A DNA stretch of 64,000 bases, taken from positions 60,056 to 124,055 of the IMG/VR virus record IMGVR_UViG_3300010885_017276, one strand, 5' to 3'. A program made the translations under genes and the position numbers. This document shows, piece by piece, positions 15,876-42,997 of the stretch. This stretch comes from a virus. The notes beneath the pieces are model-generated. The model did no database searches. It had not been told where the DNA came from and was given only the letters and a program-made list of their open reading frames with translations. The number at the start of each line of letters is the position of its first letter. The first letter of the stretch is position 1.

Positions 15876-18800
15876 CTATTCTTCTGAATTTTCGTCTTCT
15901 TCTAGAGACTCTTTGTTTATAAACATTGCTATTGGAACAAAGCTCTCTGAGTTGTTAAAGTGATTATAGGCATCTCTCTGAGACTTCAGGTTTTTGGCTG
16001 AATACAAGTCAAAGTATGATTTAGCTCCTACCAAGTTTTTAATAAGATACGCTTCCTGATTTGTCAATCCTGAATATCTTCCTCTGTCTACTAGACTTGT
16101 GTCAAATAAATTTTGAACACTGGCCAAATTTTCAATCTTAGATAAACCTACAATAGGCTCTTTACTTGATGAATAAAACTCACCTAATATACCAAACTGA
16201 GAAGATGAAGTTTCGTTAGCAGTTCTCTCAAACATATAAGCTGTTGCTTGTGCTAGCATACTGTCATCATCGTCATCTGCCCACCCTGATATTGATAGAG
16301 TAAGTAGGAATAAGGCTGTCATAAAGGATGACTCGATCAATACCCTTCTTATGTTCTCTCTTTCAGTCTCATCTGCATTTTTATACATATTCTTGAGCTC
16401 TGTCATTGCCCCCATAAAGCTTTTACTTGCAACACCTTTGTTAATAGTATTTGTAAATGTTCTCATCACAGATAAGTAGGAACCCTCTTCAAATTGCCCG
16501 GTTTGCATATTTAGATGCTTTCTCTTGAACCTGTTAGATGTACCAATAGATAACCAAGCTTTGTGGGTCATTGTAAATCCTCCAAGTACGTGTCTTTGAA
16601 GCTGAGTTCTTTCTTCGTTCTTGATCTGACCATCTATTCTCTCGATAAGCTTCTTAACCTTACTTACTACACCAAGCTCCATGTTTCTGAACTCTTTTTG
16701 GAACTCTTCTCCATTGGTCTTACCCATATCTTGGGCTAACTTGTCGTAGTTATAGGTAACGCTATTATCTTTGATATCTAAATAGCTGTAAAGGGTTTTA
16801 TCTTTTAGTTTCTCCCAGTTACTCTTGATGCTATCCATTGTGATATTTGGGTCTGACAGTTTTTGTAACTCCTCGAATTTTTTGAAGTCTACTAACTTAT
16901 CACCAAATACCCTATGGCCGTATAATTGAGAAAGCATAGCTTTAGACAACGGCACAAAGTTAGCTGCGGTGTGTAAGATGTACATGGATTTTGACAATGT
17001 TCTTACACCTTTGTTGTACATAGAGTTTTCAAATCTAGCATTTAGATCAAATGCCCCAAAGTACTCACCCATTACAGATAATTTAGCCTTAGAGTTTATG
17101 TCTAATCCCTCACTAATAGCCGGAGTAGATATCTTTAAGAACTCTCTGTTGGCCATAGCCATAGAACCTTTGTCTACGTACTGACCAATAAGTTTTTCTA
17201 AGAACAGAGTAGTCTCTGCTGTAATCCAAGAGGTAAGTGGTACTACCACGTTAAGAGCCAAAGAGTTATTCTTTACCCAGTTGTGCAACCAGTTTACAAT
17301 CTTAGTAAGGTCTACCTGTCCTAGGAACGGAAGGTTAACCCTCCACTGCTTTAACTCCTTTACTCCAAATAAGTTGTAGTCCATATAAGACTTAAACATC
17401 TTGTAAGTGTTGGTAGCTTCAGCAGCTTTACCATCAGGGTAAACACGGTTCATTACCTTATCATTCAATACAGCAAACTCTGAGAATCTTTCTTTTTTAG
17501 CTCGGTATAACTCTGCTTGTTGTGCAAACAAGGCTGATGTATTAAACAAATCCTCAGAAACGTCTGTACTAGCTTCTAGTTTTTTCAAGAAGTATTTAGG
17601 TATGATTCTAATGTTAGCCTTTTTGATCAAAGACTCACCTTGGAACTCAGCACCAAATGCTTGCTCATCCACTCTAAATCTAGTAGCATCCAACCACATA
17701 TCTTTCAAAGCCCCTTTTTTACCTTGGAGTAATCCTTGGATTTTTTGGAACTTAGTCTTGGATATTTGAGGTGCTAGATACAAGTTTTGTAAACCTAGTT
17801 CTCCATAAGATCGTAAACTTTCTTTTTGGAACTCCATGTACTCAGTGTACAAGTCGAACATCTTTTGGTTTCTGGTAGGTTGTATTTTACCGTCTTTTAA
17901 GATCGGGTTATTATTGCTATCCAATTTTGGCCCAAACATATCCACAAACTTAGGGTTCAAAAACTTAGACAATTTTGGTTGTCTAGACCCACCCTCAAAA
18001 TCTGATTTGTAGTTTTCGTTCTTGAACTTAATTTCCCCCATTTCATAGTAAGAGAAATTATTACTAATTTTTATATCAGCTCTTTCATTAAGTGTAGTAA
18101 CTAAATCTGTTACAGACTGATTTCCTGATTTTAAGCTTTTGTAAAAGTCAGATACTCCTATTGGAGAAAATGCTCTATAATAAGGAGCCAGTTTTGACTC
18201 AGCATACTTAAGTTTCAAACCGTCTATATCAGAAGGTAATATCTGAGATAGTTCATTGATCCCGGATATCTTTTTGATAAGCTCTTTTTGCTTGTCAGAT
18301 ACGTGTCTTCCTGAAGCAAAGTCATCTAATATATCAGAGAAATTTCTAACTTTTTTTCTGTTCTCCGGGGTCATATTTTTATAGTTGAAATCTAACTTTT
18401 CTTCAGTTGTATTTCTTCTATTATCTTGTAATGCCTCGTAGTAAGCTTGGTTAGGGGTTGACTCAGTTGTCGCTTCCTTTTCTTCACCTACCTGTGCAAC
18501 ATCCTTGAACAAAGTGTAGAGTAAATTATAACTTCTATCGATGTCTTCTGACAATCTCAAGATGTGCTCCTTTACCTCTGCAGGTATCTCTGATGCAAGT
18601 GTGTTTGTATAGTTTTTAGAATCCTGGTATCTTTTTAAGATAGCCTTTCTTTCCTCTAACTGTGATTTGTATTTTTCAATTTCATCTATCCAAGTCTGTT
18701 CTGCGTTAGGCCCCTGAGCATACGAATCGATATAGGTCATCATTGTCTCAGATGTGTCAAACCCATTCCAGAACTCAGAAGAAAAACCTAAGCTTGTATT

Positions 18801-21629
18801 AAGTAGGAAAAACTCTACTGCTGCTTCTCTACCCTCTTCCTTTTCGATCCTGTCTAACTCCTCTAAGAATTTAGGTGCAAGTTTCTCAACATCGATCTTA
18901 TCTCCACCAGACAAAGCTGCCTCGGCATTCTTCTTATCGATAAAGGTCTTGTCTATCTTGTTGATTTCAAAGGCTAATGTAGCTTCCTCTCTAGCATCAG
19001 GAGATAACCTAGTATCTAGTTTATAGAACTTACCTGAAGACTCGATAGTTACACCGTCCTCCGGCATACTAACTTCTATGATACCTTTCTTAAGACCCCC
19101 TAATTCATCGTGTAATGATTTAGCAGTTCTTCTTCTAAGGTTAATCCCATCTAGGTTATGCTGATCTTGGTACTTGTATCTAGGTAGACCTTTTTCTGTT
19201 TTTACCCTTGCCATCAATTGACCTAAGTCTGTAGACAAAAGCTTCAAGAAGGTTCTAGTATTTTTACTAATGCCTAGGTCATCATATTCCTTTTCACGGT
19301 TTTCGTAGTATTCGTCTGTAAAGGAACGCTCAATAAAGGTGTTGATTTCTTTTGTAACAGCATTCTTATATTCAAACTCAGCGTCCTTATCTGTGATAGG
19401 TGCTATAGTACCGTCCTCTATTTTCTTAGAGATTTGTTCTATTGACTCTTGGCTTCCAGAGTACTGTTTGTATAGAGTAGCTCTAGTTTTAAGAACTTCC
19501 TTTTCAAACTTTTCCCAATCGTACAAGCTAACCACGTAACCATTTCCTTCAGAAAATTTAGCTAAGTCCTTTTCAAGGAAGCCTAACTCTCTGATTTTTT
19601 GTTGCCATTTTTTTACCCTAGACATGTACTTGTGCTCTGCATCTAAATTCATATCCGAGATAACACTACCCAAAATGTTCAATAATGGATCGTGAGCATG
19701 GGTAATTTGACCAAACCAAGAGTACAACAACTGAGTGTCCTTAGTTGCGTTTTCTATACCTTTGATCAAGTCATCTCTGTATTTATCATCAATACTATGT
19801 CTGACCATCAAACGGTCAACAACTCTGTTTAAGATGTTATTTTCTGTATTAGCTACCTCCCCCTTTACATTTGAGATTTCATCTAGTACATTTTTGATAT
19901 CCTCTTCCAAAGAAGACAATTCCGGATCTTCTCTAACTAATACTTTTAGTCGCTCTAATACAGGAGCAATGTTTTCTTTTAGGTTGTATAATACAATACC
20001 TTCTTCGTTAGACAAGGTCTCGCCTCTTTTTTGAGCATCACGAATAGCACCGGATAAATACACAGCGTATCGTTTGGCTAATTTTATAAGTTCTAGTCCA
20101 GAGCTTTTTGTCAAGGCTTTGTCCAAAGCGTCATTTAACCTCTGTACCTCTGCTGTAGACCCCACACCTGCTCTTATCAAGGTTTTCTCTTGGTCTAGTA
20201 GTACTTGTACCAACAACTTAGCTACAGTGGCCTTAGAGTCCAACATGGAGTTACCACTAGACTGTCCTGTCTGATACATTCTAAACTTTTTAGTTTTAGT
20301 TTGTTCAAGGTTAAGGTATTTGTTTATGTCTTGGCTTAATATTAAGTCTTCAACCTTCAGGGTCAAGTTTTCTAGGTCTCTTTTGTAGTCATCGCTAATG
20401 TTCAAACTATTAAAGAATTTTACAAACATGTCGTATATCCTTTTCAGGATATTGGCTTGTAGTTCTGTTTTACCCTCTGTGCTGAATCTAGTTTTCAAAG
20501 ACTTAGCTAACTCTTTACCAAGTACCTCTCTTCTTACAAGGTTTTCAACTTCTTCAGCTGACATACCGGGGTTCTCCCTTGTGTATATCTCTCTGTAGTG
20601 TTGAGAATGCTCTTGGTAAGCCTCTGTCTTATTTATGTTTCTAAGTAGGTTTTCTATCTCTGCGTTATCCCAAGCTTCCACAATAAAGTGGCAAGTTTCC
20701 TCTGTCAGTAATTCTGGTGCAATAACACCGTCTTTGAATGCTACGACTTGGTTTGCAATATCTGCTAAAGCTTCGGCAGATGGCTCTACACCATTGCGGA
20801 TTTTGTAATTAGCAATGTAGTCTTGTATAGACATTACTTTTACCCCCATACCATTCAATAAATCTAAAAGCTTCAAGCTTAGATCTTTTTCTGATACAGT
20901 CGGTGGTTCTATTTTTGTACCTCCGGGCAAAGCTTCTTTTACTGCGTTGTTGATTGTCATCTGTAACGCAATGTCCTTCCCGAATCTTTTGGTCAATTCC
21001 TCTAAGGTGGAGCTTCTTATTTCTGAGATAGTTACAATTTCGCCATTAACCTCGATGCTGTTTACTGCATCTCTTAGTTCTATTCTGCCATCAGTGTGAA
21101 GGGTTATGTTTTTACTGTTTAGATTAGTTACTGCGGACTCTTTGATAAGTCTTTCATTAACCATCTGTAGTGCAGGGTCATTACCTTCTGCCTTATGGAA
21201 AGTCTTGCCGTCTTCTATTATCTTTTCATCAGACAATATGCCGTCTTTTATAAAGCTGTTGATAAACCCGTTGAAGGTGGACTCGTTAGTATTAGAAGAT
21301 ACAGACATAAAGTTTTGAAAACCCTTTCCTGTTTCTATACCAATTTCTATTAGCCCCCCTGTGGAGTTTGTCAATGCTTCTTTATAAGTCTGGAATACAC
21401 TTCCTGTATCAGATCTAAAGGTCAAGGTTGGCTCCTCTAATTCAGGTTGGGATATTTCTTTTTTTTGCATACTCTGAGAGTATACGTTTTTGAACACCTC
21501 TAGGGCCTCTTCTAAAGAAGATACGTGGGGTAATCTAGCTATTTGCTTAAACAGCCTACTTTCAACTCCTTTTGGAGTAAGAACTGTTTTTATACTACCC
21601 TCTTCGTTAAACTTTATTGTACAAGTCAT
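15876..21629 (-). CDS. Giant virion-type protein with polyvalent-like header, 1917 aa
   Basis: The last gene of the virion block. Its first 50 residues (MTCTIKFNEEGSIKTVLTP, then RLFKQIARLP and SLEEALEVF) match the start of the 2571-aa protein upstream. Around residue 313 lies LTEETCHFIVEA, the position of a zinc peptidase HExxH motif with the first His changed to Glu, so catalysis is doubtful. Large central parts are charged and helical (residues 400-1250). The C-terminal third contains SLNVVVPLTSWITAETTLFLEKLIG and NSKAKLSVMGEYFG, which I recall from internal virion proteins of Bacteroidota phages. A hydrophobic helix at about 1770-1787 ends in WADDDDD. I infer an ejected cargo protein. Own promoter at 21646-21676. 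Confidence 0.75.
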   Translation of the reverse strand: MTCTIKFNEEGSIKTVLTPKGVESRLFKQIARLPHVSSLEEALEVFKNVYSQSMQKKEISQPELEEPTLTFRSDTGSVFQTYKEALTNSTGGLIEIGIETGKGFQNFMSVSSNTNESTFNGFINSFIKDGILSDEKIIEDGKTFHKAEGNDPALQMVNERLIKESAVTNLNSKNITLHTDGRIELRDAVNSIEVNGEIVTISEIRSSTLEELTKRFGKDIALQMTINNAVKEALPGGTKIEPPTVSEKDLSLKLLDLLNGMGVKVMSIQDYIANYKIRNGVEPSAEALADIANQVVAFKDGVIAPELLTEETCHFIVEAWDNAEIENLLRNINKTEAYQEHSQHYREIYTRENPGMSAEEVENLVRREVLGKELAKSLKTRFSTEGKTELQANILKRIYDMFVKFFNSLNISDDYKRDLENLTLKVEDLILSQDINKYLNLEQTKTKKFRMYQTGQSSGNSMLDSKATVAKLLVQVLLDQEKTLIRAGVGSTAEVQRLNDALDKALTKSSGLELIKLAKRYAVYLSGAIRDAQKRGETLSNEEGIVLYNLKENIAPVLERLKVLVREDPELSSLEEDIKNVLDEISNVKGEVANTENNILNRVVDRLMVRHSIDDKYRDDLIKGIENATKDTQLLYSWFGQITHAHDPLLNILGSVISDMNLDAEHKYMSRVKKWQQKIRELGFLEKDLAKFSEGNGYVVSLYDWEKFEKEVLKTRATLYKQYSGSQESIEQISKKIEDGTIAPITDKDAEFEYKNAVTKEINTFIERSFTDEYYENREKEYDDLGISKNTRTFLKLLSTDLGQLMARVKTEKGLPRYKYQDQHNLDGINLRRRTAKSLHDELGGLKKGIIEVSMPEDGVTIESSGKFYKLDTRLSPDAREEATLAFEINKIDKTFIDKKNAEAALSGGDKIDVEKLAPKFLEELDRIEKEEGREAAVEFFLLNTSLGFSSEFWNGFDTSETMMTYIDSYAQGPNAEQTWIDEIEKYKSQLEERKAILKRYQDSKNYTNTLASEIPAEVKEHILRLSEDIDRSYNLLYTLFKDVAQVGEEKEATTESTPNQAYYEALQDNRRNTTEEKLDFNYKNMTPENRKKVRNFSDILDDFASGRHVSDKQKELIKKISGINELSQILPSDIDGLKLKYAESKLAPYYRAFSPIGVSDFYKSLKSGNQSVTDLVTTLNERADIKISNNFSYYEMGEIKFKNENYKSDFEGGSRQPKLSKFLNPKFVDMFGPKLDSNNNPILKDGKIQPTRNQKMFDLYTEYMEFQKESLRSYGELGLQNLYLAPQISKTKFQKIQGLLQGKKGALKDMWLDATRFRVDEQAFGAEFQGESLIKKANIRIIPKYFLKKLEASTDVSEDLFNTSALFAQQAELYRAKKERFSEFAVLNDKVMNRVYPDGKAAEATNTYKMFKSYMDYNLFGVKELKQWRVNLPFLGQVDLTKIVNWLHNWVKNNSLALNVVVPLTSWITAETTLFLEKLIGQYVDKGSMAMANREFLKISTPAISEGLDINSKAKLSVMGEYFGAFDLNARFENSMYNKGVRTLSKSMYILHTAANFVPLSKAMLSQLYGHRVFGDKLVDFKKFEELQKLSDPNITMDSIKSNWEKLKDKTLYSYLDIKDNSVTYNYDKLAQDMGKTNGEEFQKEFRNMELGVVSKVKKLIERIDGQIKNEERTQLQRHVLGGFTMTHKAWLSIGTSNRFKRKHLNMQTGQFEEGSYLSVMRTFTNTINKGVASKSFMGAMTELKNMYKNADETERENIRRVLIESSFMTALFLLTLSISGWADDDDDSMLAQATAYMFERTANETSSSQFGILGEFYSSSKEPIVGLSKIENLASVQNLFDTSLVDRGRYSGLTNQEAYLIKNLVGAKSYFDLYSAKNLKSQRDAYNHFNNSESFVPIAMFINKESLEEDENSEE

Positions 21630-21645
21630 GTTATATTATTTTAGG

Positions 21646-21676
21646 CAAAATTACAATTTTTATTTGAGACTGCAAA
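21646..21676 (-). promoter_or_regulatory. Late-type promoter for the 1917-aa gene
   Basis: On the minus strand TTTG at 21676 and TAATTTTG at 21653-21646, 16 nt before the ATG. The leader is therefore very short. Confidence 0.72.
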
Positions 21677-21686
21677 ATAAATTAAA

Positions 21687-24600
21687 TTATTTACAGTTAA
21701 AATACTCATTATTAATTTGCTCAAGTTCTTTTTTAGTATAGTATTGTTTTGACTCTTTGAATATCTCCGGTGAGTTCTCTAGATGTTGGTATTGAGAGAA
21801 GTCGATGTCCGACAAAGGTTTTTCAATATCTGTCAATTTATAATCTGTGTCTACATCAGGTAACTTGTTATAAAACTTCACATTACCAAATTGGTAAATC
21901 ATCTCGAATACCCCCACAGGAGTTCTCACGAAGGTCTCAGTTTCATTTTTAGTAGCCATCACACCATCCTCTAAGTAAGTGTAATTACCCTTTAGTTTTT
22001 TGACACTTTCAGGATTGTTTACAACATCTTGTCTTTTCTCTTTTTGAGAATCTATGTACTCTCCGGCTTTTTCTTGAGACTCTAGACCTAATTTTAGAGT
22101 TCTTGATAATACATCGTATTGTGCCAATGATTCTTTGAACTCTTCGGGTAAACTCAAGATAGCTTCTGATTTGTTTATCTCGTCATTTGCTATTAACTCT
22201 ATACCTCTTTCAGTAACTGTGAAGTACTTGTTGTTTGTTTCTAGAATCCATTTGTTGAAGTCTTTTATAAAGTCATCTTTCAACATCTCCGGATCCATAG
22301 TCAAATCAGTCAAGCCTTGTGTGCTAACTTTTTTAGTATTAATTACTAAAGGAAAGCCAAAGTACATCTTGTACAACAACATCTTTTCTAGCAATTCTGA
22401 ATCTACTTGAAAATCAGGTATCTCTAGTTTAGAGATAGTCTTTGACACATAGTTTTTCAAGTCTTCCACAGAGGTTATATTTCCTGGCAGTAGGTCAACA
22501 TTTTCCATCATGCTGTCGTACATATCTTCTAAGGATTGCTCTGTAACTATTCTGTAAACACCGTCTTGTTTCTTAACTAGGCTGTGGTCTCTGAATAATT
22601 CATACTCTGTATTTTCTGCATCCAAGAACACATCCGACATGTTGTCTGTTATTATTAACTCCTTTGAAGGCTCAGTTATGTCAAACATTGCATTGTACAT
22701 GTCAGCAAAAGTAGACAAGGTTTGTTCTGAAGGTTCTACTAATACATCCTCCATAGCATTCAAAAAGTCAAGTACATCCTCTCTACTGTGAGTAATAGCT
22801 TTTGTTGCTAAGTCTCTCAGGTCAATGCCGTTTTTAGCAGCATCTTTCTTTATTTTATTCAAGATTTTGCCAATAGCATTTCTGCTCTCTTCCCAAGTCT
22901 CTTTTCTAATAGAGCTGTTAAGGAAATCAATATTTTCAGACATACTTCCATTGTAATCATCTGTGATAGTGTTTGCAATACTACCTATGGTGCTTGGTAA
23001 TTTATCAACAAGTTCCCCGTTTATTACAGTCTTTACTGGGACTGATTTTGTGGTTTTGTTTAAGTCGTCTACCAATGCTTTGAACTCTTTGTCTTGAGCA
23101 TATCTTTCAGCCAATACCCCATCTAAATTAGCAGGGATTTCTTCTGGTGCTACATCTGATACAGCATCTGCTATCTCTCGTTCTATCTCAAAAGGATTAG
23201 AGGATCTTTGTTTACCAAGTGAGGTTAATTCAGAAGACATAGGGATTACAAAAATAGGGTTATACTCTACAGAAAACTCTTCTGTGTTTCTAAGCTTTAA
23301 TAGAGTCTCTCTTATATTTCTTTGAATATCCGGAGAGTTCAATATCATATCTATCTCGTAATCATTATACATCTTACTTCTTTCTAGCTTCATTCTGCTG
23401 AATGTTACAACACCCTTTGTGCTTAAAGCCTTCATCAGACTTGTGTATAGATCCTTTGAATTAGTTAATCCAAACCCTAACATAGCGTTTTGTACATCCA
23501 TTACCTCTTCATTTTCAAGAGCTTCTGTTTTAGCAGAGTTAAACTGTAAAACTGTGCTTGCATCAGGTTCACCGTTTTTATCAAAACCTTTTGGTGAAAC
23601 AGGTCTAGCTTTTCTAATCATTTCAAACCCTGATGTATTTCGGAATCCTAGAGAGTTATAAAAGTCTCCTAGTTTATCTTCGTCTGTAATCCCACCATCT
23701 CTTGAACTTACTGCTAAGTATACATCTTTTCCAATTGAATCTGTATACTTCAAGAAAGCTTCTGCTGCTTTTCTAGCGTTTCCGTTTCCTTTATTATCAG
23801 ACTCTAGTAATTGAAGTTCTATCTGTCCTGTGTCTTCTCCGGTGATAGGGTTTATTCTATCAGCAGCAAACACCCTAGCACCATTCATATCTACGACTGG
23901 TTTTCTAACATTGCTACTACTAGTAGTAGTAGTTTGAACTTTCGGCTCTTCTACTCTATTATCTTCTACTGAGTTAGTTCCGTATTTTTCTTGAACTTCA
24001 GATAAAAGACCTGACCTTTGAGCTGATGTATAGTACCCTTTAACTATATCATTATTACTAGCTGTCACAATGTGGTCTAAAACTGTTATGCTGAACTTTT
24101 CTAATTTTCTAGAGATATCTTTTACCGAAGAAAAATTATCTTGATTACCGTAAAATATAACACTTTTAGCAATTCCAAACTCTCCTATAAAGCTAGTCAA
24201 TTCTTCGTACTCAATACCATCTTGAAAAACGTAGTTTCCAATAATTTTATTATTTTGGTCTAAAATAAGAGCTGCATTTTTAGGCATAGCTGAAAATCTA
24301 AACTGTTGTATGACATTAGCGGAATCTTCAGCTCCAGCCACTTTACCTAGAGGCTCTGATAAAATCTCTTGCTCATTAAGGGTATAAGTAGTTAAGTTTT
24401 CCTTTTTACCTTCTGTTTCAACTCTGGCTACACCTTTTGCTGATGTTAGTCCAAACTCATCTAATATAGTATATTGTTTACTATATGTATCCATTATAAC
24501 ATGCTCCAAAGAAATGTTTAATTCTTTTAGTCCAGAAGCCACTCTTGAAGTAATTTCTGAATCAGCCGCACTTGGGTTTAAGTTACCACTTGGGTGATTA

Positions 24601-27600
24601 TGTACAAGATACACTTTTTTAGATTTGAATTTATTAACCCCCGAAAGAACTAGTCCGGGATCAATAACTGTACCTGTAGATCCCCCAACACTTAAAAATT
24701 GGATATGTGATTTACCTTTAGCATCCGTATGAACTGCAAATGCATGCTCTACAGATTTGTTTTCTAGTAAGCTCATAATCTCAGCTACATCAGCAGCATT
24801 CTTTACTCTAGTTGTACCAGTAAATTGTAAATCTTTGGATTTATTCCAAATACCTTTTACTGAACGAAATACACCGTTGATTTTATCTCCCTCCCATTGT
24901 ATTCCATCTCTTGAGTCGTAATCCACATCTCCAGATTCTGATAGATAGGATACTCCACTTTCGGTTGTTGCTGTTGTTGATCTTCCTTCATATTCTTTTG
25001 CTCTTTTTGGTTTTGATAAAGCAGATTTTTTGTTTTTACTATCTAATAGCATTTTACTATAGATATCTTTTATTCCAGGGTTTAATTCGTTGATGTCTCC
25101 AAAATAAGCTATTGCATCTTTTATAACTTCAAAGAACCAATCTTTTAGTCTTTTGAATATACCGTCAATATCTCCATTTAAGTTGGCACCTTCATATATG
25201 TATCTTTCAGCACCTTTTGCAAAAGCTTCTCTAAATTGTTTTGTGCCTTTTTTATGTCCGCTCCAATCTTCTACAATTTTAACTTCTTGTGTTGTTAATA
25301 CATCTTCATATTTATGTGCTAACTCATGTACAGGAGTTGTTACATCTGCATTATTTTTATCTAATAATATTAATGTAGATTCCTCTGTTCTTACAATAGC
25401 CCCTCTTCTATCTTGTTTGTCTATAGATACATCAAATCTATCGCTAGATACATCAAACCTAGTTGATGAAAGAAGATTTGGTACCTTAACGGCACTATTA
25501 ACAATCCTTAATTTTTTATCTATTTTAGTAGTTGGAGGTAATAGTTCGTTTTCAGGAATCTCAATTGTACAGTTGTCAAATTGTAAATCATACAAAAAAG
25601 TTACATTTTTTCCTATGTTTAATACTCTATTATTTTTATTTATATCAGAGTCTTGTATTACTATATCAGCTTTTATAACGGAGTTATCTGGGATATCTAT
25701 CACTGCAATAGCTCTATCACTAGATATAAATCTAACAATAAAATCTGCATTTTCTGGTATAAAGTCTATATCTGTATTTTCAAAGTTGACAGTTCGGAGA
25801 AAATATGCATCTTTTATTTTTTCCATACCGCCACACTTTTCAAAAGTAGTAGTCGAGCCAAATAATGTACCTCTGCCAAAATTGCTATCTCCAAAATATA
25901 TACTTTGGAAGTCTACAGTATTGTAAAACACAACATTATTCCCAACATTAAATTCCTTTATTTTTTCAAAAATCGCAAAACCTTCTTTATCAGCACCTTC
26001 ACCAGGTAACATACCTATTTTAGCTTCCGATTCTATATCTAATTTAATAAGATTTTCTAAAGCAATCCTATTTATTTTTGCCCCTTTAGATATTCTTAAT
26101 GCAGTATTTGAATTACTCCAGAGTCCCGTACCCTTAAAACTAAGATCATCTATTTGTACATCAGGCTCTATAACAAGTAATCCTCTACCATTATGAGAAC
26201 TAAATTTTTTAAGTTTAGTTCCTTTTTCTATATTAAATTTTCCGTCAAAAGTTATATCATGTAGTATAACTTCTTCTAGACTAGAACTTTTACCTATAGT
26301 AAAATTTTCAATAATGGGAGCATTTGTTAAAATTAATCTTTTAATTTGAGCCCCATTAGTTATATTAAGATCATTTCTTAGATGCACTTGATTAAGAAAT
26401 AATTCTGATATCTTAGCTGTAGACGGGATACTAAAGCTTTTAGGTAACCCATCTAATCCTGGAAAATCAGCTATATTAAGAATTTTAAAATCTACATTAT
26501 CTGGTATAGTAAACCCCTCTTCAAAATCACAAAGGCTTAATTGTATAGTTGAACTATTTTTCATACCATTTGGAATTGCCCCTTTTGGTAAGTTTGACTC
26601 AGAAATTGTGATACCCATCCTAGAATTACTATCATTTGGCAATTGAAAACCCTTGTTGAGATAGCATTTGTTAATATATACTGATTCTAACATATTATTT
26701 TCCAACAAAGTAAAATCTTCAAAAGTGGTGTTAATTGCTGAAAAACCACAACCTGCATATTTAGGTATACTAAAACCTTTTTCTATTTTTGAACCTGCTA
26801 AAAATATCTCCCCTATGCTAGAGGGGATTACAAAATCTTTTGATATTTTAGAATCATCAATTCTTAGCGCACCATCTATTCTAGTACTTTTAGGTATTGT
26901 AGAATCTGTTATTGGGATTGTTGAAATGCTTAACCCTCTTTCAAAATGTAAATTTTCTAAGAATTTAACACCTTTCGCCTTAAAAGATCGATCATATTGG
27001 AAAACATCTTTAAAGACACATCCATTACCAATAACTAGATTTCCAGATATATTAGATCCATCAAGAGAGAAATCTGTTAGTACAGAGTTATCTTCTATAA
27101 TAAGATTCTTAAAATATGAATTTTCAATTTTAATAATCGCCTCACCTAATTTTGGTAATATAAAATCATCCTTGAATACAACATTTTCTAACCCAAAAAA
27201 CCCGTTTACTTTTCCAGAATTTCCAAGTTTTAGTTTTAAATCTTTTGAATTTTTTACTCTAAGTGCCTCAGTTTCATAATTGTCTCCTATTTCAAAAGAG
27301 GCCACATTTTTAATATTAATTGTTTTTTTGGAATAAAAGTTTTTTCCTATTTTTATAGATGACATAAGATTCTTAAATTTATCAGAAGTCTCAAACTCTA
27401 TATCTGTTGCACTTACATTATCACCAATAATAATTTCAGAAGCATTGTATATAGTTATATCACCTGTTACTTTTAAACCATTTGGTAAAGTAACTATATC
27501 TTTTTCATCCGAAGTATAGATAGTAAGATCACCAATTATAAGTTGATTTTCTTGTATGTCAAATCCAGTTATTGTATTTACACTAGTATACTCTCTGTTA

Positions 27601-29402
27601 CTGCTTATTTTGGAGTATATTTTGTATTTTTCGTTTACGTCTGGTAATTTATTTTTATCAAAGTCTGCTCTTAGGTCTCTATACTCTGATTGTTTTGCGG
27701 AATCATAAGTTTCTAATCTTAAACCCATAGTATCAATATAATCTTGTAGATCTTGTTTACTAAAATCTTCATTATTAACTAACTTATGGTATATTCTAGA
27801 TGTCTTTATATTATTCGCATACTTAAGACCGTTTTGTATTTTTGGCAGTTTTTTGTATGCCTCGTCTGCCTGCTCTTTGGATAAAGCCTGTCCTGCATCT
27901 GTGCCTTTTAGTTCGGATATATCGCTACCATCGTATCTAATAGTAATGGTAGGTTCTAATGTTTTGTCTAAGAATAGATAAAAATCTCCTTTTGGTAAAT
28001 AGCTAGAAGCCATACCCCCACCAGTACACCAAGGGTTTGAAGACATAACTTTAGCTACCTTTTTACTAACTAATGTTAAGGCTTTTATATCACCTTCTTC
28101 ACTAGATTTATTGAACTTTACCCAATAGCCATTCTCAGTCTCTTCTTCAATTCTGTCTTTGATTAAATCCCAAGTTTCTTCTCTTGTGATAAAAGCTTTA
28201 TCTGTGTGTTTGTCAATAAGTTTTATTGGATGTGTATCACTTCCGTTTTTTAAGTCCTGGTATACATTTGGCAATACCATAGAAGATAGTTCTTGGTGAT
28301 TACCCACAGTCATTGAATTTCTTTTTGCTTTCTCTCCGGGAATTGTTCTTGTTACATTACCGTTGTCATCTAAAACCTCTATGTCTTTAGCTACGTTACC
28401 CTTCAAGGTAAGAGCAACCATCATATATTTAAACTCTGCTGAATAATCAGAAGATGGTATTATATACTCCAAAGAAGAGACTAAATTAGCTCTTTGTATA
28501 CCCTGTAAGTTTTTTATATTTTCAGATATAGCATAGCTGTTACCATCTATAAGAGCTTGTATGGACTCTTTTTCTGCTTCTGTTACAGCTCTTTTTAAAG
28601 AGGACTGCAAGAAACTAGGAGATAGTTCTTGTATGTAAAAGTCATTTGTGTTTGCAGCTCTATCTTTAATCTCTAGAAGTCTTCTATTAATTTCAGCTGT
28701 TATTTTTTCTTGGTTACCTAAAGAAGATAATTTTGTAGTATAGCCTAAGAATCCAAAAGTTTCTTCTAAGTCTAATAAAGAGGACATGATGTAATTATCT
28801 TTAGCTATACCTAAGTTTTTGATATATTTAGGCTGTACTGTTTGGTAATCTACTGTGGTGCCTTCTTCTGTTACCCCGGAAAAGTCTTTGATTAATTGAT
28901 CAGATAAACCAGATAGTTCTGAAATAGAGTTTGGCACATCTTTCAAGAACTCTTGCACATTGCTTACAGTTCTTATAGCCATACTTCTCTTTAACTGCTC
29001 TACAGTTTTTCCTAGTCTCTTTGCAATATTAGTATAGATTATATTTGCAACTTTTTCTAGTGTATCTGCTTGGTCATCAGAGATTTTCTCTACTTTTTTA
29101 AGTTCGTTAGCTATAGATGTATCCCAGTTACCTTTGTCTTCTAAAACTTCCTCCTGCACAGGAGTTAGTGCAGATGGTTCTACTGAAGATACGATACCTT
29201 GATTAAAAGAGTTTATTTTGTCTTGTGATATAGACTTAAAATCCTCCAGTTCAGTCAAGGCATAAAGATTTAAGGCGGCATTTTTATTACCGCCTGTCAT
29301 CTCTGCTAATGTATCAAATAATTTACTTCTGTTTCCGTCTGGTGTTTGTACAAAGTCAATTTCACCTTTTTCATCTCTGAAAATTCTACAGTTTAATGCC
29401 AT
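21687..29402 (-). CDS. Giant polyvalent protein: beta-solenoid, zincin, RadC/JAB and GNAT domains
   Basis: A 2571-aa protein with several recognisable units. Residues 1-50 form a header shared with the 1917-aa protein. About 637-1307 is a long solenoid of short strands with recurring Ile/Leu and Gly-Asn turns (IIIGDN, LVIGNG, FTIGKS). H1359-E1360-x-x-H1363 (VHELAHKYE) is an intact zincin site. Residues about 1540-1640 form a RadC/JAB metallopeptidase with H1601-x-H1603-P-S-G and D1614, followed by a diverged second RadC-like unit (LDHIVTASNND). About 1830-1940 looks like a GNAT acetyltransferase (GNGNARKAAEAFL, FYNSLGF). The C-terminal 600 residues are helical. This mixture is the hallmark of polyvalent proteins, which phages are thought to deliver with their DNA to act on host targets. 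Targets here are unknown. Confidence 0.8.
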   Translation of the reverse strand: MALNCRIFRDEKGEIDFVQTPDGNRSKLFDTLAEMTGGNKNAALNLYALTELEDFKSISQDKINSFNQGIVSSVEPSALTPVQEEVLEDKGNWDTSIANELKKVEKISDDQADTLEKVANIIYTNIAKRLGKTVEQLKRSMAIRTVSNVQEFLKDVPNSISELSGLSDQLIKDFSGVTEEGTTVDYQTVQPKYIKNLGIAKDNYIMSSLLDLEETFGFLGYTTKLSSLGNQEKITAEINRRLLEIKDRAANTNDFYIQELSPSFLQSSLKRAVTEAEKESIQALIDGNSYAISENIKNLQGIQRANLVSSLEYIIPSSDYSAEFKYMMVALTLKGNVAKDIEVLDDNGNVTRTIPGEKAKRNSMTVGNHQELSSMVLPNVYQDLKNGSDTHPIKLIDKHTDKAFITREETWDLIKDRIEEETENGYWVKFNKSSEEGDIKALTLVSKKVAKVMSSNPWCTGGGMASSYLPKGDFYLFLDKTLEPTITIRYDGSDISELKGTDAGQALSKEQADEAYKKLPKIQNGLKYANNIKTSRIYHKLVNNEDFSKQDLQDYIDTMGLRLETYDSAKQSEYRDLRADFDKNKLPDVNEKYKIYSKISSNREYTSVNTITGFDIQENQLIIGDLTIYTSDEKDIVTLPNGLKVTGDITIYNASEIIIGDNVSATDIEFETSDKFKNLMSSIKIGKNFYSKKTINIKNVASFEIGDNYETEALRVKNSKDLKLKLGNSGKVNGFFGLENVVFKDDFILPKLGEAIIKIENSYFKNLIIEDNSVLTDFSLDGSNISGNLVIGNGCVFKDVFQYDRSFKAKGVKFLENLHFERGLSISTIPITDSTIPKSTRIDGALRIDDSKISKDFVIPSSIGEIFLAGSKIEKGFSIPKYAGCGFSAINTTFEDFTLLENNMLESVYINKCYLNKGFQLPNDSNSRMGITISESNLPKGAIPNGMKNSSTIQLSLCDFEEGFTIPDNVDFKILNIADFPGLDGLPKSFSIPSTAKISELFLNQVHLRNDLNITNGAQIKRLILTNAPIIENFTIGKSSSLEEVILHDITFDGKFNIEKGTKLKKFSSHNGRGLLVIEPDVQIDDLSFKGTGLWSNSNTALRISKGAKINRIALENLIKLDIESEAKIGMLPGEGADKEGFAIFEKIKEFNVGNNVVFYNTVDFQSIYFGDSNFGRGTLFGSTTTFEKCGGMEKIKDAYFLRTVNFENTDIDFIPENADFIVRFISSDRAIAVIDIPDNSVIKADIVIQDSDINKNNRVLNIGKNVTFLYDLQFDNCTIEIPENELLPPTTKIDKKLRIVNSAVKVPNLLSSTRFDVSSDRFDVSIDKQDRRGAIVRTEESTLILLDKNNADVTTPVHELAHKYEDVLTTQEVKIVEDWSGHKKGTKQFREAFAKGAERYIYEGANLNGDIDGIFKRLKDWFFEVIKDAIAYFGDINELNPGIKDIYSKMLLDSKNKKSALSKPKRAKEYEGRSTTATTESGVSYLSESGDVDYDSRDGIQWEGDKINGVFRSVKGIWNKSKDLQFTGTTRVKNAADVAEIMSLLENKSVEHAFAVHTDAKGKSHIQFLSVGGSTGTVIDPGLVLSGVNKFKSKKVYLVHNHPSGNLNPSAADSEITSRVASGLKELNISLEHVIMDTYSKQYTILDEFGLTSAKGVARVETEGKKENLTTYTLNEQEILSEPLGKVAGAEDSANVIQQFRFSAMPKNAALILDQNNKIIGNYVFQDGIEYEELTSFIGEFGIAKSVIFYGNQDNFSSVKDISRKLEKFSITVLDHIVTASNNDIVKGYYTSAQRSGLLSEVQEKYGTNSVEDNRVEEPKVQTTTTSSSNVRKPVVDMNGARVFAADRINPITGEDTGQIELQLLESDNKGNGNARKAAEAFLKYTDSIGKDVYLAVSSRDGGITDEDKLGDFYNSLGFRNTSGFEMIRKARPVSPKGFDKNGEPDASTVLQFNSAKTEALENEEVMDVQNAMLGFGLTNSKDLYTSLMKALSTKGVVTFSRMKLERSKMYNDYEIDMILNSPDIQRNIRETLLKLRNTEEFSVEYNPIFVIPMSSELTSLGKQRSSNPFEIEREIADAVSDVAPEEIPANLDGVLAERYAQDKEFKALVDDLNKTTKSVPVKTVINGELVDKLPSTIGSIANTITDDYNGSMSENIDFLNSSIRKETWEESRNAIGKILNKIKKDAAKNGIDLRDLATKAITHSREDVLDFLNAMEDVLVEPSEQTLSTFADMYNAMFDITEPSKELIITDNMSDVFLDAENTEYELFRDHSLVKKQDGVYRIVTEQSLEDMYDSMMENVDLLPGNITSVEDLKNYVSKTISKLEIPDFQVDSELLEKMLLYKMYFGFPLVINTKKVSTQGLTDLTMDPEMLKDDFIKDFNKWILETNNKYFTVTERGIELIANDEINKSEAILSLPEEFKESLAQYDVLSRTLKLGLESQEKAGEYIDSQKEKRQDVVNNPESVKKLKGNYTYLEDGVMATKNETETFVRTPVGVFEMIYQFGNVKFYNKLPDVDTDYKLTDIEKPLSDIDFSQYQHLENSPEIFKESKQYYTKKELEQINNEYFNCK
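25480..27500 (-). repeat. Beta-solenoid repeat region within the 2571-aa gene
   Basis: About 670 residues made of imperfect units of roughly 20-25 residues with alternating hydrophobic strands and Gly/Asn/Asp turns. There is no fixed consensus, but phrases such as IGDN, IGNG, IGKS, IGKN and STIP/SIP recur at turn positions. The DNA is visibly richer in A and T than both flanks, and long spurious frames are open on the other strand, at 25153-25926 and 26668-27279. Confidence 0.65.
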
Positions 29403-29422
29403 TATTATGTTTTATTTTTATG

Positions 29423-29454
29423 CAAAATTACGAAATTACTTTTATATATCCAAA
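29423..29454 (-). promoter_or_regulatory. Late-type promoter for the 2571-aa gene
   Basis: Minus strand TTTG at 29454 (TTG at 29453) and TAATTTTG at 29430-29423, 23 nt from TTG, with 20 nt to the ATG. A 7-bp inverted repeat, TTGTTAA/TTAACAA (29456-29462 and 29475-29481), lies just upstream and overlaps the stop of the preceding gene. Confidence 0.75.
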
Positions 29455-29474: not shown

Positions 29475-32400
29475 TTAACAATCCTCTAGATCATCTATAA
29501 TAGTTTCAACTTTAGCTCTGTATTCTGGACTTACTTTTACTAACTCTCTTAGCAAGGCTACAACCTTTGGATGATCCAAGAAGTCGTACTCTTTTGCTGT
29601 CAAAGTATTATTTATAAACTTATCTAGTATCTCCGAAGCTTTTTCATCTGTAAAGTTTATTCTCCAGTCTTTTACTGAACTAGTAAGTCCGTTTGGGCTC
29701 AAATCAATAATAGGTTTAGGTGAAGACAAAGGATTGTCTGTCATGTCTACAGCTATAGAAGCATCGTTTACTAGGTCCTCTGCTGAATAGGCTTGACTCA
29801 TCCATTCCTTTACATCTGCTGTTTGTTCTACCTTATTTAGGTCAGCTATAGCTTGTTGTAAGTTTCTAGTTATGTTTCCTTCTTGGTCAAACAGTGTTTG
29901 ATTCTCCATATCTAAGAAATGTAAATCATACTTTGTTGTAGAAAGTCCGTTGTCAACTAGCATTTGGTTTAGCTCTAAAGACAAGGATGCTAAGTTTTTA
30001 CCATCTCCTTTTTGGAACTCATCAACCATACTATTCAAGAACGCATCTCCTATGTTATTATTTGTCTTTTTAAGATTCAAGGGGAAAGCAAACAAATACT
30101 GTCCTTGTCTCATTACAACTACAGGAGTTCCGTTCTTATTCAAGAATTTACTAACGTAGTCCTTTCTAACTTTTGTAGTCTTACCGTCCTTAAGCACAAG
30201 CTTTCCGTTTTGTATGTAACCATAGGTTACTACTTTTTTAGGCTCTATCTCAAAGTATTTTATTTTACCATCTTCATACACAAAGTTTGGTGTTCCTAGA
30301 AGTAGGTGTTTAACTTTTGTTTGTATCGGTAACTCTAAATTAGTACCACTTACAGCTACCCCTCCTTCAAGAGCCAATTTTACTGCGTTTAATGCAGCCA
30401 GTCTAACTCTCAAAAATCCAGGACTGTCTGAAATGTCATAGTTAGCCTTCAGATCGCTTAATTTATTTCCTCGGTAGTCTGTGGCATTTATCTTGATATT
30501 GTCCATTAGATCTTTACCTAGCTCTTCCTCAGTCTTTGCATTAGGTACACCGTCTTCAATATCTTGTAATCCTTGTTGGTAACCTTCGATTAATATCTGG
30601 TTGTACTCATTCTCAAGGTCTACTGAAAATAACACAGGTTCTCCCGGTAGCATTTCGTATAGTTGGCTTGGTGTATAGGTATTAGAGTCCTTGAAGTCTG
30701 TACTAAGATTCTTGTTAGTTTTTAGATCATACACAACCCCATATCCGCCATTGTTATATAGCTTTATGTTGTTGGTCTGTAGACTAGCTTGGTTAAATAT
30801 GTTTTGGTATTCTGCCTTACTTTTGAAAAGTAGTCTACCACCTTTGTCTATTCTAATTACTGCTGAACTACCATCTTCTAATACCACTGTGAACTTAGCA
30901 CCAACCTTGGCAAGAGTCTCTAGGTCTGTCAAAGACAAGTTATCCTTAGAGCTTTTTACAATCTCCTTGTTGCCTTTGGTTTCTACTTGTTCGTATCTTA
31001 TAGTATCTAAGGCTAGTCTTTTTAATAACCCGGCCAAAGTCAAGTGTGATACAGAGGTTCCATTTTTGGTTTGAGATACAAACACATTTTCGTAAGTCTG
31101 AAGAATCTCTCCATTTCTTATAGGTTCCCCTTCATCTGTTATTGAAGGATTTGGGTCTACCGCTGTTTGTAGTTCTACGTCTGTAAGTTCAACATCTGGT
31201 ATTACTGGAACGGTCTGTGACCTTGCAATATCTTGCATTATCATTTCTGCTATGGATACTCCATCCTTACTTCCGTAAGCTTCTAGTAATCTCCAATTTG
31301 CAAATTTCTCGTTAAGTTCTTGCAGTCTTAATACCTCTTCTTTTGACAAAGATACCAAGTTTTTTCCTAACTGTGGTAAGGTACTATTTCCATAAGGACT
31401 CTTAAATGAGATAGTTTTGTTGTTTATTTTTGGATCATTTATAGCTCTCTCGGCCAAAGCTTGAAACTCTAACATCTCAGCTTCAGACGGCATTTTAGGA
31501 GTGGTTTCTGTACCGTAGTACTCCATTAAATAGGGGCTATTCTTGATAAGGTTGGCAATAAAATCTTTTATAGAAGTTTTTACCTCTGCTACATTAGTAG
31601 ACTCTAGTTGATATCTTTTATTAATCTCATCTATCTTAGCTTGCTTTTCCTTTTCTAGCTTTTCTATTTCTTTTGCATTGCCTTCTGCTTCACTTTGTGC
31701 ATTAGTAGCAGCAGTTGCTGCAGCCGCATTAGCTTGTTTTAAGCTATCTAATAAAGGAGTGATTAATTTATCATACCTGTCATATATTTCATTATACTGG
31801 TCTAGGACAGCAGTAGTCATCATGGTCTTATCTACCTTACCATTAATAACTTTATAGTCTTCTATATTAGGTATTTTAGAAAGCATTTCGTTTTGCTCCT
31901 GCTCTCTTAAATCTGCTATTTGCTGTTGTATATTTTGAGGAGTGGCTGCTATATTAGACAATTCGCTACTTAATAAAGCTAAGGTACTATTAACGTGATC
32001 ATAGAACTCATTGGAGTCAGTATTTTTACCAGCCGGTTTTGTAGGTAAGTTCATAGTATCGTTAAAAGCTTCTAAATCTGCTTTACCATCACTTAAAAAT
32101 CCTATTCCGTCCTTTAATCTACCGTTACCGTTATTCTCTCTGCTTTCAATAGTCCCTATTCCCTCATTAAGTATCTTAGAAAGCTTCTCAAATAATTGGA
32201 ATCCGTAACTATTATTTATTTGTTCTTCTGAACCTTTGTTTATCCACCCTTTCTCTACTCCAATCCCAAATACTGCATACCAATTGCCGGCTTTTACATT
32301 TTTCTTACCTGCTTGTCCAGTACTGATATAAAAAGGTATGTTGTATTTACCTATTTTCATCATTACCATTACTCTATCAGAGTAATCGACTACGTTGTAT

Positions 32401-35400
32401 TCTTGACCATTAATATTAATTGGAGATAGTAAATTATTACTTCTTAACCAATCTAGTTTTTCATTTAGGGTAGTTAGTTTATTTAACTCTGCTACTATAG
32501 TGGCTACTGGTGTAGATACCAAACTAATATTAGACTCTGATTGTTGAACAGGAGCTTGTTGTTTTTTTAACTCTGCTATCTTGTCATCGTACTCTTGTGT
32601 TACTTTGGCAATAGCTTCGTCTCTCTTGGCTTGTTTTTCTTCTCTTGTGGGTTTTTTAATAGAGTCCCCGACTTGTGCTGTTTCGGTTTCCTCTTCGTCT
32701 TGCCCGGCCTTTTCTATTACTTCTTTTACAGGTTCAGCAGTTTCTATCTTATTGATAAACTCCTCTACCCCTCTCTCTTGCATACTATCTAGCACACCTT
32801 GTAAAAACTCAGCTGTCATCAAGTTAGGTGACTTGTCTGAGTATATTTCTGAGATGATGTTTCTCTTGCCTCTTAACCCAAGTTTTGGATCAGATAGTTG
32901 TCTAGCTAAATCAGCATATCTTTTGAATGCATAGATAGACTTACCATACTCGCTTACTAACTTTTGTAGTTTTAGTGCTTGTTGTGGGTCTATCTTTTTA
33001 TGCTCTTGAATTAACTCCTTTATTCTTTGTATGTTGTTCTCTCTGTTTTGTAGGGTAGTAGATGTTATTATTAACTCGTCTACATCTTTACCGAAAGGGT
33101 TTGTTAGATTAGCTGTTTTTATCAACAGTCTGTACTCAGTGGTTAGTTGCTCTTTTTCAGTTTCTAACTGAGCCATTCTAGTTCTAACACCATCAATCTT
33201 GTTTAGTGCATTTCTTCTACTTTCAGGGTCAGAAATAGTACTAATAGTATTTTCTAACTGCTTGTACTCTTGCTCTAAGCTAACTCTTTCTTTTTCAAGT
33301 TTTACAATTTGCTTTTCTGTATTCTTAGCTTTAGTTTGAGTTTCTTTACCGGCTTTTAACAAGGTATCCTCAATAGATAAAGCTGTTGAGATTTCTTCTC
33401 CCAAAGTTTTACCAACTTCATTTTTTATAGATGTCAGCAAGTCTTGAGAGAACCCATGAACTTTTTCTCCAAGAGTCAATTCGTAAGCAACAGCATCCTT
33501 AATGGCTGACATACTTACTTTGTCAAGTTTTGCTTTTTCTTCTTTTGTTAGATTGTCATTCAAGTAGTACTCAGCAAACTCTCTATTTTTGGTGTAAGTT
33601 TTTGTAGTATCCTTGTACTCATCAATCATCTTTTGCTTCAAATCTTCAGCACCTTGTTCATCTACTTTGTACTCTTTCATTATAGACTCATTGTCTATAT
33701 TCTTGATAGCTGCCTCTGTTTGTTTTACAGTTTCATCTGTGTACTCTAAGTTATGTGCATGTGAAATTTGAGCTATTATCGAAGATTGTCTTGATAACTC
33801 TCCCCCGGTAACATCTCCTGTTTTTCTTGCGTTATCTATTCCCTCTCCGGCTGCTTGTGATCTACCTGCGTATGCAATAGTCTGAGCCATTTTGTTTGGG
33901 GAGTAGTTGCTATCGTAGAAAGCCTCTAAATTTTTTACTTTTTGCTCTTCTTGAACAAACTCGCCTCTAAGGCTTTTATTTTTATAGGCACTAATACCTG
34001 TACCAGTCAATAGACCGATAAGCATACCAATACCTACCTCTTTCATTCCTTCTTTTGTGCCATAGGTATCCGACAAACCTTGTGTAAAGGCATCACCTAT
34101 TTGCATTGTATTGTGTAAGTACTTGGGGTCGTATGTAGATTTGATCCAGTTTTTAGCTGTATTTTGACCAACAGACTGCATACCCTCTTCCCATAGACCT
34201 TCTATTAAGGCACTCTCTCCAAGGTTCCAGCCGTATTGAGCTGCTTTTTGGAATTTAGTAGCTGTTTTGGCTACTATTTTGCCTTCAACACTCTCTAGAC
34301 CAATCCCAAATATTTTAGAATTTGCCCATTTTGAAGAGGCCGAAAGTGGACTACTCATATCAAATATTCTACCGATAGTCATCAAGTTAGATGAACCAAC
34401 AATAGCCATATTGTAACCGTACAAAGCATTAGCTGAATTTGTCAAGTCTTTGTCAAACTCATCTAACTCTTTTTGTGTGGGTTTTCTGTTATTCTTAGAT
34501 TCAAAATCCTCTAAGAAATTATCTTTGCTTTCTCGTATATAAGTACGAGCCTCCATACCAGATTCAAATCCTGCTGAAGTGTATGTAAATCTTGCTACGT
34601 TGGCTAGTTTTCCTGCTTTACCAAATGCCGTTGCCATACCTACAGGTAGTTTGGCATTTGCATAGGTTTGTAATATTGGTTTAGAAGCTATACTTCTAGC
34701 CTCTGCCATAGCTGTCATCTTACTAAGACCTCTTTCTAATCTAGACCCCGATGCGGCAAATCTTTCAAGTTTAGCACCTAATCTAGCTGCACTAGTAGCC
34801 ACTGCTGCTCCTCCTGTTGCATAGTCCCAGATAACTTCAGAGCCAATGGCAGAAACTGTAAATGCCGCACCACCTAGTACGTCCTTAGCCCAAAAATTAG
34901 CTGTACCCATAGACTCAAAAAAGCCCATGTCCTTTTCCTCTTTGGTATAATAGTTAGGCAGCTTGTAATCCATTTTCTCATTAAGGTCATCAATATAGTT
35001 ATTGAACTGGTTATCGTAAGTGGCTCTAAAGCTTCCTTGTTTTACCCCCTCATAGATACCATTTACTGTGCCAACCGTGCCTCCAATTATACCTGTACCA
35101 ACCTGCCCTGCAAATTTAGTTAAACCATTTATCCACTTATCTGCTGTACTTTGTGTTTGGCCTGCGTACTCTGCATTATCTACACCTACCTTATAATCAT
35201 CATATTTTTTTATAACAGAGCCATCACGCATGGTTGCATAAGCATCCTGTACGTTGTAGTTTTTTTCATAAAAAGATAATTTTTCAGGTCCTCCTATCTC
35301 AGTGCCAAAAGCCAAACCATTATCCGGGTTAAAATCTTCCGGTTGGTCTGGCAATTTTTGTCTTTTTGGATCTGTGTAACTACTTCTTATATCCCCAATA

Positions 35401-35480
35401 ATACTCTCTAGTCCTGTAGCTGGAGCAGCAGAAAATCCTTGTGCTTCAACTCTTCCTAATTCTTTGTAGTAATCTTCCAT
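29475..35480 (-). CDS. Giant hydrophobic-patch virion protein (cargo type), 2001 aa
   Basis: Its first 500 residues carry several Gly/Ala-rich hydrophobic stretches: GTGIIGGTVGTVNGIYEG near 130, LGGAAFTVSAIGSEVIW near 200-216 and GIGMLIGLLTGTG near 490. Such stretches are typical of internal virion proteins that enter or cross the host membrane at ejection. Coiled coils follow at about 710-785 (KQIVKLEKERVSLEQEYKQ) and near 1275. The second half is a mix of helical and beta parts without a motif I can name. I recall the GTANFWAKD segment near residue 192 from other Bacteroidota phage giant proteins. It is two bases downstream of the 950-aa gene and shares its promoter at 38357. No RNA polymerase motif was seen. 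Confidence 0.72.
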   Translation of the reverse strand: MEDYYKELGRVEAQGFSAAPATGLESIIGDIRSSYTDPKRQKLPDQPEDFNPDNGLAFGTEIGGPEKLSFYEKNYNVQDAYATMRDGSVIKKYDDYKVGVDNAEYAGQTQSTADKWINGLTKFAGQVGTGIIGGTVGTVNGIYEGVKQGSFRATYDNQFNNYIDDLNEKMDYKLPNYYTKEEKDMGFFESMGTANFWAKDVLGGAAFTVSAIGSEVIWDYATGGAAVATSAARLGAKLERFAASGSRLERGLSKMTAMAEARSIASKPILQTYANAKLPVGMATAFGKAGKLANVARFTYTSAGFESGMEARTYIRESKDNFLEDFESKNNRKPTQKELDEFDKDLTNSANALYGYNMAIVGSSNLMTIGRIFDMSSPLSASSKWANSKIFGIGLESVEGKIVAKTATKFQKAAQYGWNLGESALIEGLWEEGMQSVGQNTAKNWIKSTYDPKYLHNTMQIGDAFTQGLSDTYGTKEGMKEVGIGMLIGLLTGTGISAYKNKSLRGEFVQEEQKVKNLEAFYDSNYSPNKMAQTIAYAGRSQAAGEGIDNARKTGDVTGGELSRQSSIIAQISHAHNLEYTDETVKQTEAAIKNIDNESIMKEYKVDEQGAEDLKQKMIDEYKDTTKTYTKNREFAEYYLNDNLTKEEKAKLDKVSMSAIKDAVAYELTLGEKVHGFSQDLLTSIKNEVGKTLGEEISTALSIEDTLLKAGKETQTKAKNTEKQIVKLEKERVSLEQEYKQLENTISTISDPESRRNALNKIDGVRTRMAQLETEKEQLTTEYRLLIKTANLTNPFGKDVDELIITSTTLQNRENNIQRIKELIQEHKKIDPQQALKLQKLVSEYGKSIYAFKRYADLARQLSDPKLGLRGKRNIISEIYSDKSPNLMTAEFLQGVLDSMQERGVEEFINKIETAEPVKEVIEKAGQDEEETETAQVGDSIKKPTREEKQAKRDEAIAKVTQEYDDKIAELKKQQAPVQQSESNISLVSTPVATIVAELNKLTTLNEKLDWLRSNNLLSPININGQEYNVVDYSDRVMVMMKIGKYNIPFYISTGQAGKKNVKAGNWYAVFGIGVEKGWINKGSEEQINNSYGFQLFEKLSKILNEGIGTIESRENNGNGRLKDGIGFLSDGKADLEAFNDTMNLPTKPAGKNTDSNEFYDHVNSTLALLSSELSNIAATPQNIQQQIADLREQEQNEMLSKIPNIEDYKVINGKVDKTMMTTAVLDQYNEIYDRYDKLITPLLDSLKQANAAAATAATNAQSEAEGNAKEIEKLEKEKQAKIDEINKRYQLESTNVAEVKTSIKDFIANLIKNSPYLMEYYGTETTPKMPSEAEMLEFQALAERAINDPKINNKTISFKSPYGNSTLPQLGKNLVSLSKEEVLRLQELNEKFANWRLLEAYGSKDGVSIAEMIMQDIARSQTVPVIPDVELTDVELQTAVDPNPSITDEGEPIRNGEILQTYENVFVSQTKNGTSVSHLTLAGLLKRLALDTIRYEQVETKGNKEIVKSSKDNLSLTDLETLAKVGAKFTVVLEDGSSAVIRIDKGGRLLFKSKAEYQNIFNQASLQTNNIKLYNNGGYGVVYDLKTNKNLSTDFKDSNTYTPSQLYEMLPGEPVLFSVDLENEYNQILIEGYQQGLQDIEDGVPNAKTEEELGKDLMDNIKINATDYRGNKLSDLKANYDISDSPGFLRVRLAALNAVKLALEGGVAVSGTNLELPIQTKVKHLLLGTPNFVYEDGKIKYFEIEPKKVVTYGYIQNGKLVLKDGKTTKVRKDYVSKFLNKNGTPVVVMRQGQYLFAFPLNLKKTNNNIGDAFLNSMVDEFQKGDGKNLASLSLELNQMLVDNGLSTTKYDLHFLDMENQTLFDQEGNITRNLQQAIADLNKVEQTADVKEWMSQAYSAEDLVNDASIAVDMTDNPLSSPKPIIDLSPNGLTSSVKDWRINFTDEKASEILDKFINNTLTAKEYDFLDHPKVVALLRELVKVSPEYRAKVETIIDDLEDC

Positions 35481-38335: not shown

Positions 38336-38356
38336 ATCTTATGTGTGAATTTATTG

Positions 38357-38388: not shown

Positions 38389-38397
38389 TTAATTAAA

Positions 38398-42946: not shown

Positions 42947-42953
42947 TTTTATT

Positions 42954-42982: not shown

Positions 42983-42997
42983 TAAAAAATTTAAACT

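Follow-up and report, generated by a model that had tools for sequence, protein, structure and literature searches.

A 2571-residue protein of a crAss-like phage that probably combines a conserved virion cargo backbone with a polyvalent payload

The stretch of viral DNA analysed here (the window, 64,000 nucleotides) is the terminal part of a 124,055-base virus record and contains a 2571-aa open reading frame (21687..29402, minus strand) that runs without interruption, with a GC content by codon position of 0.42/0.33/0.23. The question raised by this locus is what kind of protein joins a long beta-solenoid to several enzyme-like domains in a single chain, and how it would be used. The initial annotation had read it as a polyvalent mixture of beta-solenoid, zincin, RadC-type JAB and GNAT domains, of the sort injected to counter host defence; it did not contain four further parts, namely an N-terminal tag, a WCT domain, a second JAB domain and a C-terminal module. 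This one polypeptide of a mobile element combines several different domains of effector or enzyme type with homology to a virion slot, so that the mixture itself stands, while injection and an anti-defence action are what we infer from it. From the sequence comparisons below, the gene product is probably a cargo protein in the virion of an epsilon-like crAss-like phage; its conserved ends would serve as a backbone and its middle would hold a polyvalent payload.

Genomic context and conserved ends of the protein

The gene lies between an upstream gp39-like gene (29475..35480, minus strand, 2001 aa) and a downstream gp36-like gene (15876..21629, minus strand, 1917 aa), in synteny with Cellulophaga phage phi17:2, whose order gp41-gp40-gp39-gp38-gp36 corresponds to the window genes at 38398, 35483, 29475, 21687 and 15876. 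Yutin et al (2021, PMC7886860) count phage phi17:2 among the epsilon-group crAss-like phages, and csAssE-Sib, an epsilon phage (PMC11054128), carries the same gene families as the window. On the basis of these homologous and syntenic structural and cargo genes, the window phage resembles the epsilon-group crAss-like phages. The downstream gp36-like protein also displays, at residues 310-319, an EETxHFxVEA-type motif that is invariant in three phages and looks like a zincin helix minus its first His. A DxDGD-type expression, the only RNA polymerase motif tried, is absent from the five giant window proteins tested.

The gene for the 2571-aa protein takes the slot that gp38 has in phi17:2; gp38 is annotated as 'virion structural protein', a label that goes back to similarity to phi4:1 gp37 and was inherited from Cellulophaga phage records. 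A C-terminal module common to the virion slot proteins (residues 1934-2571, including Cys2570; 21687..23603, minus strand) matches phi17:2 gp38 (517 aa, E=4e-25), the slot protein of contig L005 (771 aa, E=4.9e-33) and a csAssE-Sib protein (752 aa, E=1.6e-9), and a further member of about 745 aa is found in the human gut contig MT839099. Homology to these proteins of 517-771 aa marks the window protein as a member of the slot family enlarged by ~1,900 residues. The payload was observed in one of five slot proteins, the others being 517-771 aa long, and the slot gene is absent from contig L004 between its 2010-aa and 1838-aa genes. Phi17:2 gp38 and phi4:1 gp37 (517 aa) are thus like the window protein in their slot, their C-terminal module and a Cys near both ends, but they have no payload (517 versus 2571 aa), and the tag of phi17:2 gp38 is not recognised by the model described below. 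Scans of viral contigs returned no relative of the whole protein or of its N-terminal part.

At the other end, the first 55 residues form an N-terminal tag (29238..29402, minus strand, including Cys5) with similarity to the beginning of the following gene and to the N-termini of slot and gp36-like proteins in other genomes. An HMM of the tag built without the window protein recovers it from among 1001 sequences with E=2.4e-9, the best shuffle reaching 0.45, and one built without any slot gene still does so with E=5.6e-8. The window genome has exactly two carriers, this gene and the next; among the five records searched, contig L005 and csAssE-Sib likewise have two each, and phi17:2 and contig L004 one each, the single carrier in phi17:2 meaning that its gp38 goes unrecognised. 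Tag-like sequence is also present in cr52_1, cr56_1 and cr115_1 (core Crassvirales), where in the two Suoliviridae, cr56_1 and cr115_1, it stands near the start of the gene that follows the giant 'nuclear pore complex protein-like' gene. Note that the gp36-like protein of csAssE-Sib (L003:30223-36625) is annotated as two overlapping ORFs of 281 and 1885 aa; since the tag sits in the 281-aa ORF, a frameshift or a sequencing error has probably broken this gene in two.

Both tag-bearing genes of the window are preceded by the sequence TAATTTTGC (29422..29430, with a second copy at 21645-21653, minus strand). It occurs five times in the window versus 1.4 expected, a number reached in none of 100 shuffles, and it resembles the Bacteroidota -7 promoter element (TAnnTTTG).

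Domains of the payload

The zincin, JAB pair and GNAT modules of the middle part recur in giant phage proteins. The zincin metallopeptidase (residues 1326-1462; 25017..25427, minus strand) has about 80 relatives on viral contigs, nearly all in giant ORFs of about 1000-3500 aa, and its HELAH motif is located at residues 1359-1363, beginning with H1359, as first annotated. The HExxH motif is accompanied by a glutamate on the following helix, for which E1392 and E1399 are both candidates. Across 82 aligned segments, H1359, E1360, H1363, E1392 and E1399 are conserved at 99-100%, a figure that is partly circular, as the scan patterns held parts of the catalytic motifs; either of two patterns sufficed to fetch a locus, and both motifs are nonetheless kept throughout. 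The segment has no significant match among PDB sequences and appears to be a zincin of the type typical for giant phage polyvalent proteins, in which such peptidases have been proposed to process the chain (Iyer et al, 2017, PMC5512222).

Downstream of the zincin, the HNHPSG motif (residues 1601-1606) and D1614 of the initial annotation belong to a RadC-type JAB domain, JAB1 (residues 1532-1644; 24471..24809, minus strand). The Pfam RadC-like JAB model, the sole Pfam model above its cut-off in the protein, matches it with E=1.4e-18 (67.4 bits versus a cut-off of 22.1), and the RadC homologue PDB 2qlc with E=1e-10. The full JAMM set is present (E1552, H1601, H1603, S1611 and D1614). The NCBIfam RadC models miss their cut-offs (55.9 versus 180 bits and 37.2 versus 133.85 bits), so that JAB1 is a RadC-type domain and not a RadC protein. 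It is followed by a degenerate second domain, JAB2 (residues 1687-1794; 24021..24344, minus strand), which aligns to a JAB profile with a probability of 97.9% and E=5.7e-13 (hhalign). In JAB2 the sequence FYGNQDN replaces HNHPSG, and the metal-binding HxHPxG is lost in all six aligned sequences. Active and dead JAB partners are known from MPN+/MPN- pairs, which the presence of a putatively active JAB1 and a dead JAB2 in one chain recalls. The JAB1-JAB2 unit is shared with four giant phage proteins of 2109-3095 aa: residues 1472-1824 match L104, L105 and L106 at 46-48% identity, and L103 matches a longer stretch, residues 1339-1812, at 40%. BLAST of the whole window protein matches these four in the JAB and zincin regions only, and a gp36-like gene was not seen on their contigs, unlike in the window.

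The GNAT-like domain (residues 1830-1940; 23583..23915, minus strand) follows JAB2. The FYNSLGF sequence that had suggested it is found at residues 1914-1920, in agreement with an FYxxxGF motif, together with KGNGNA, a pyrophosphate-binding loop of the xxGxGxA type; a consistent profile family supports this part of the proposal, whereas no Pfam GNAT model matches the protein at E<=1. Weak similarity (E about 0.05) links the segment to gp210 of phage Lu11 and to the N4-like virion RNA polymerase of Piffle, another phage, and a profile built from these two recovers further relatives, several of them beside a zincin. The Piffle protein is, like the window protein, a giant virion protein with a related GNAT-like segment, but it is an RNA polymerase, and the JAB profile finds no JAB in it. 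GNAT adjoins zincin in four loci (L058, L076, L078 and L095), and zincin and JAB occur together in two (L084 and L103); among the ORF sets fetched by these modules, which do not amount to a census, all three are combined in the window protein only.

Ahead of these enzyme-like modules lies a domain that we call WCT (residues 286-583; 27654..28547, minus strand) after its residues W458, C459 and T460, which are followed by G472, D473, F474 and Y475. Scanning genome contigs for WCT[AG]..GDFY returned at least 71 ORFs (loci L183-L262); among the matches listed, those outside the window protein come from bacterial genomes only, mostly from Patescibacteria and Bacillota. An HMM of the bacterial relatives matches residues 418-583 with E=1.3e-14 among 2001 sequences, no shuffle being reported, and, when the upstream part is included, residues 286-553 with E=6e-17. 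In the bacterial proteins scanned, the domain corresponds to neither a Pfam nor a PHROGs family. In a Foldseek search with the structural model (pLDDT 77), GNAT-fold acetyltransferases rank first, with a best E of 0.11 and no significant match.

The beta-solenoid (residues about 610-1315; 25458..27575, minus strand) is indeed present over ~700 residues, with a hydrophobic periodicity at lags of 11, 22, 33 and 44, i.e. a period of ~22. Modelled by AlphaFold from its sequence alone, the solenoid forms an all-beta chain, with fair to good quality over residues about 610-1130 and poor quality beyond. Searching this model against PDB with Foldseek returns a mixture of LRR and right-handed beta-helix proteins, tail spikes included, at a non-significant best E of 0.035; one viral match reaches E=2.7e-4 but, with a TM of 0.19, is not interpretable. 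Tblastn of the N-terminal part and the solenoid against phages and plasmids gave no match, and the earlier remark that a solenoid is unusual among polyvalent proteins holds as far as these searches extend.

Repeats of 21 residues are present in 14 of the 71 bacterial WCT proteins listed and are placed after the WCT domain in the sequences inspected. The period of ~22 in the window fits these repeats, but an HMM of the bacterial repeats does not match the window solenoid, so that they do not prove its kinship; the bacterial proteins, moreover, are not phage cargo. Since a WCT domain combined with solenoid repeats is already a bacterial architecture, the WCT-solenoid unit looks like an imported module. 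Solenoid and zincin have a low GC3 of 0.14-0.16, compared with 0.34 for the C-terminal module and 0.23-0.37 for the giant genes next to this one, a pattern that a recent acquisition might show.

Terminal cysteines of the cargo-type proteins

The three adjacent cargo-type genes display a common distribution of cysteines. Among the epsilon-like phages sampled, the gp39-like proteins (1701-2208 aa) have one Cys each, which is the last residue in five out of five, including that of the window. All five slot proteins carry a Cys at residue 4 or 5 plus one within the last two residues, and each of the three complete epsilon-like gp36-like proteins has Cys as its third residue (Cys3 in the window) and a C-terminal end free of Cys. 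With the slot gene missing from contig L004, the C-terminal Cys of one protein there directly faces the N-terminal Cys of the next. Phage phi4:1 (L007) repeats the pattern and is very close to phi17:2; the homologues are overall few and not independent. Nine other structural proteins of the window have a terminal Cys at neither end. Four large structural proteins (35483-50014, minus strand; 950, 645, 903 and 2181 aa) contain no cysteine at all.

Outside the epsilon-like phages, the Suoliviridae cr56_1 and cr115_1 have a Cys near both abutting ends at the junction, their giant proteins ending in NNCKGK and EECK and the following proteins beginning with MAKGIC and MQC. The annotated CDS of cr56_1 gp38 (L310) contains in-frame TAG-type stops under table 11, as expected in crAss-like phages with a reassigned stop codon.

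A tentative reading of this pattern, which we consider possible though doubtful, is that crassvirus cargo proteins would be joined end to end through their terminal cysteines into a covalent train that is ejected in order; if so, the payload of the window would be an insert in its middle car. The available text of PMC10172136 describes disulfides in the crassvirus virion tail and reports no linkage between cargo proteins, and a literature search returned none either. The terminal cysteines could also be left over from a polyprotein that was cleaved, or act as a packaging signal.

Proposed mode of action and alternatives

In crassviruses, cargo proteins are kept in capsid and tail and then ejected (PMC10172136), and slot homology to virion proteins suggests that the window protein is probably delivered into the host with the DNA. 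The N-terminal tag and the C-terminal module would be the conserved backbone, whose role is probably in packaging and ejection, and the middle payload would enter the host ahead of or together with the DNA. After ejection, the zincin would most likely cut the chain and release its parts, the substrate processed by the JAB1-JAB2 pair could be a nucleic acid, a nucleotide or a protein, the GNAT-like domain may acylate a target, and the WCT-solenoid unit could act as a recognition arm, possibly with a catalytic domain of its own. Phage polyvalent proteins (Iyer et al, 2017, PMC5512222) likewise have many effector domains per chain, a zincin hub and RadC and GNAT members; the window protein differs from them in being carried on a crAss-like virion slot protein, in its WCT-solenoid unit and in its tandem of active and dead JAB domains.

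The JAB domain had been proposed as a possible isopeptidase that would undo ubiquitin-like conjugation by an antiphage system; in this reading, the GNAT would modify host proteins and the solenoid would recognise the target. The complete JAMM residues of JAB1 and a solenoid of protein-binding type in the same chain would suit such a deconjugase; however, Iyer et al (2017, PMC5512222) argue that RadC JABs are devoid of the groove for the ubiquitin tail and that nucleic acids or nucleotides are what they process. The RadC type of JAB1 leaves the ubiquitin-type reading unsupported, this analysis found no isopeptidase evidence, and we regard an anti-defence deconjugase as unlikely. Slot proteins of 517-771 aa show that the backbone works without a payload, and these, with the lost metal site of JAB2, would also be compatible with inserted domains that are mere passengers of a purely structural or ejection component. 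This is quite unlikely in view of the catalytic residues, all kept in zincin and JAB1, and of the recurrence of the modules across many unrelated giant phage proteins.

Tail spikes appear among the non-significant fold matches, along with other right-handed beta-helix proteins, and could point to a surface adhesin or depolymerase with its solenoid on the outside of the virion, where it would bind polysaccharide of the host in the manner of tail spikes; yet the gene sits among giant cargo-type genes and shares its tag with the next one, and the payload enzymes are of intracellular type, which makes this role improbable. A misassembly that fused a cargo gene to an unrelated polyvalent gene would be conceivable for a possibly incomplete virus-record contig, in which GC3 is 0.14-0.26 across the payload versus 0.34 in the C-terminal module, but the single open frame of 2571 codons has tag and module at its opposite ends and both neighbours are syntenic, so that an artefact is very improbable indeed.

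A virion cargo protein with an inserted polyvalent payload would illustrate a possible route by which a crAss-like phage makes an effector carrier out of a conserved slot protein of its virion. The same slot with and without payload offers a comparative handle for separating backbone from cargo, and two modules are worth naming, the WCT domain, outside Pfam and PHROGs, and the tandem of active and dead JAB domains. If the cysteine linkage is real, it would also bear directly on how a crassvirus arranges its very large proteins and threads them out of the capsid.
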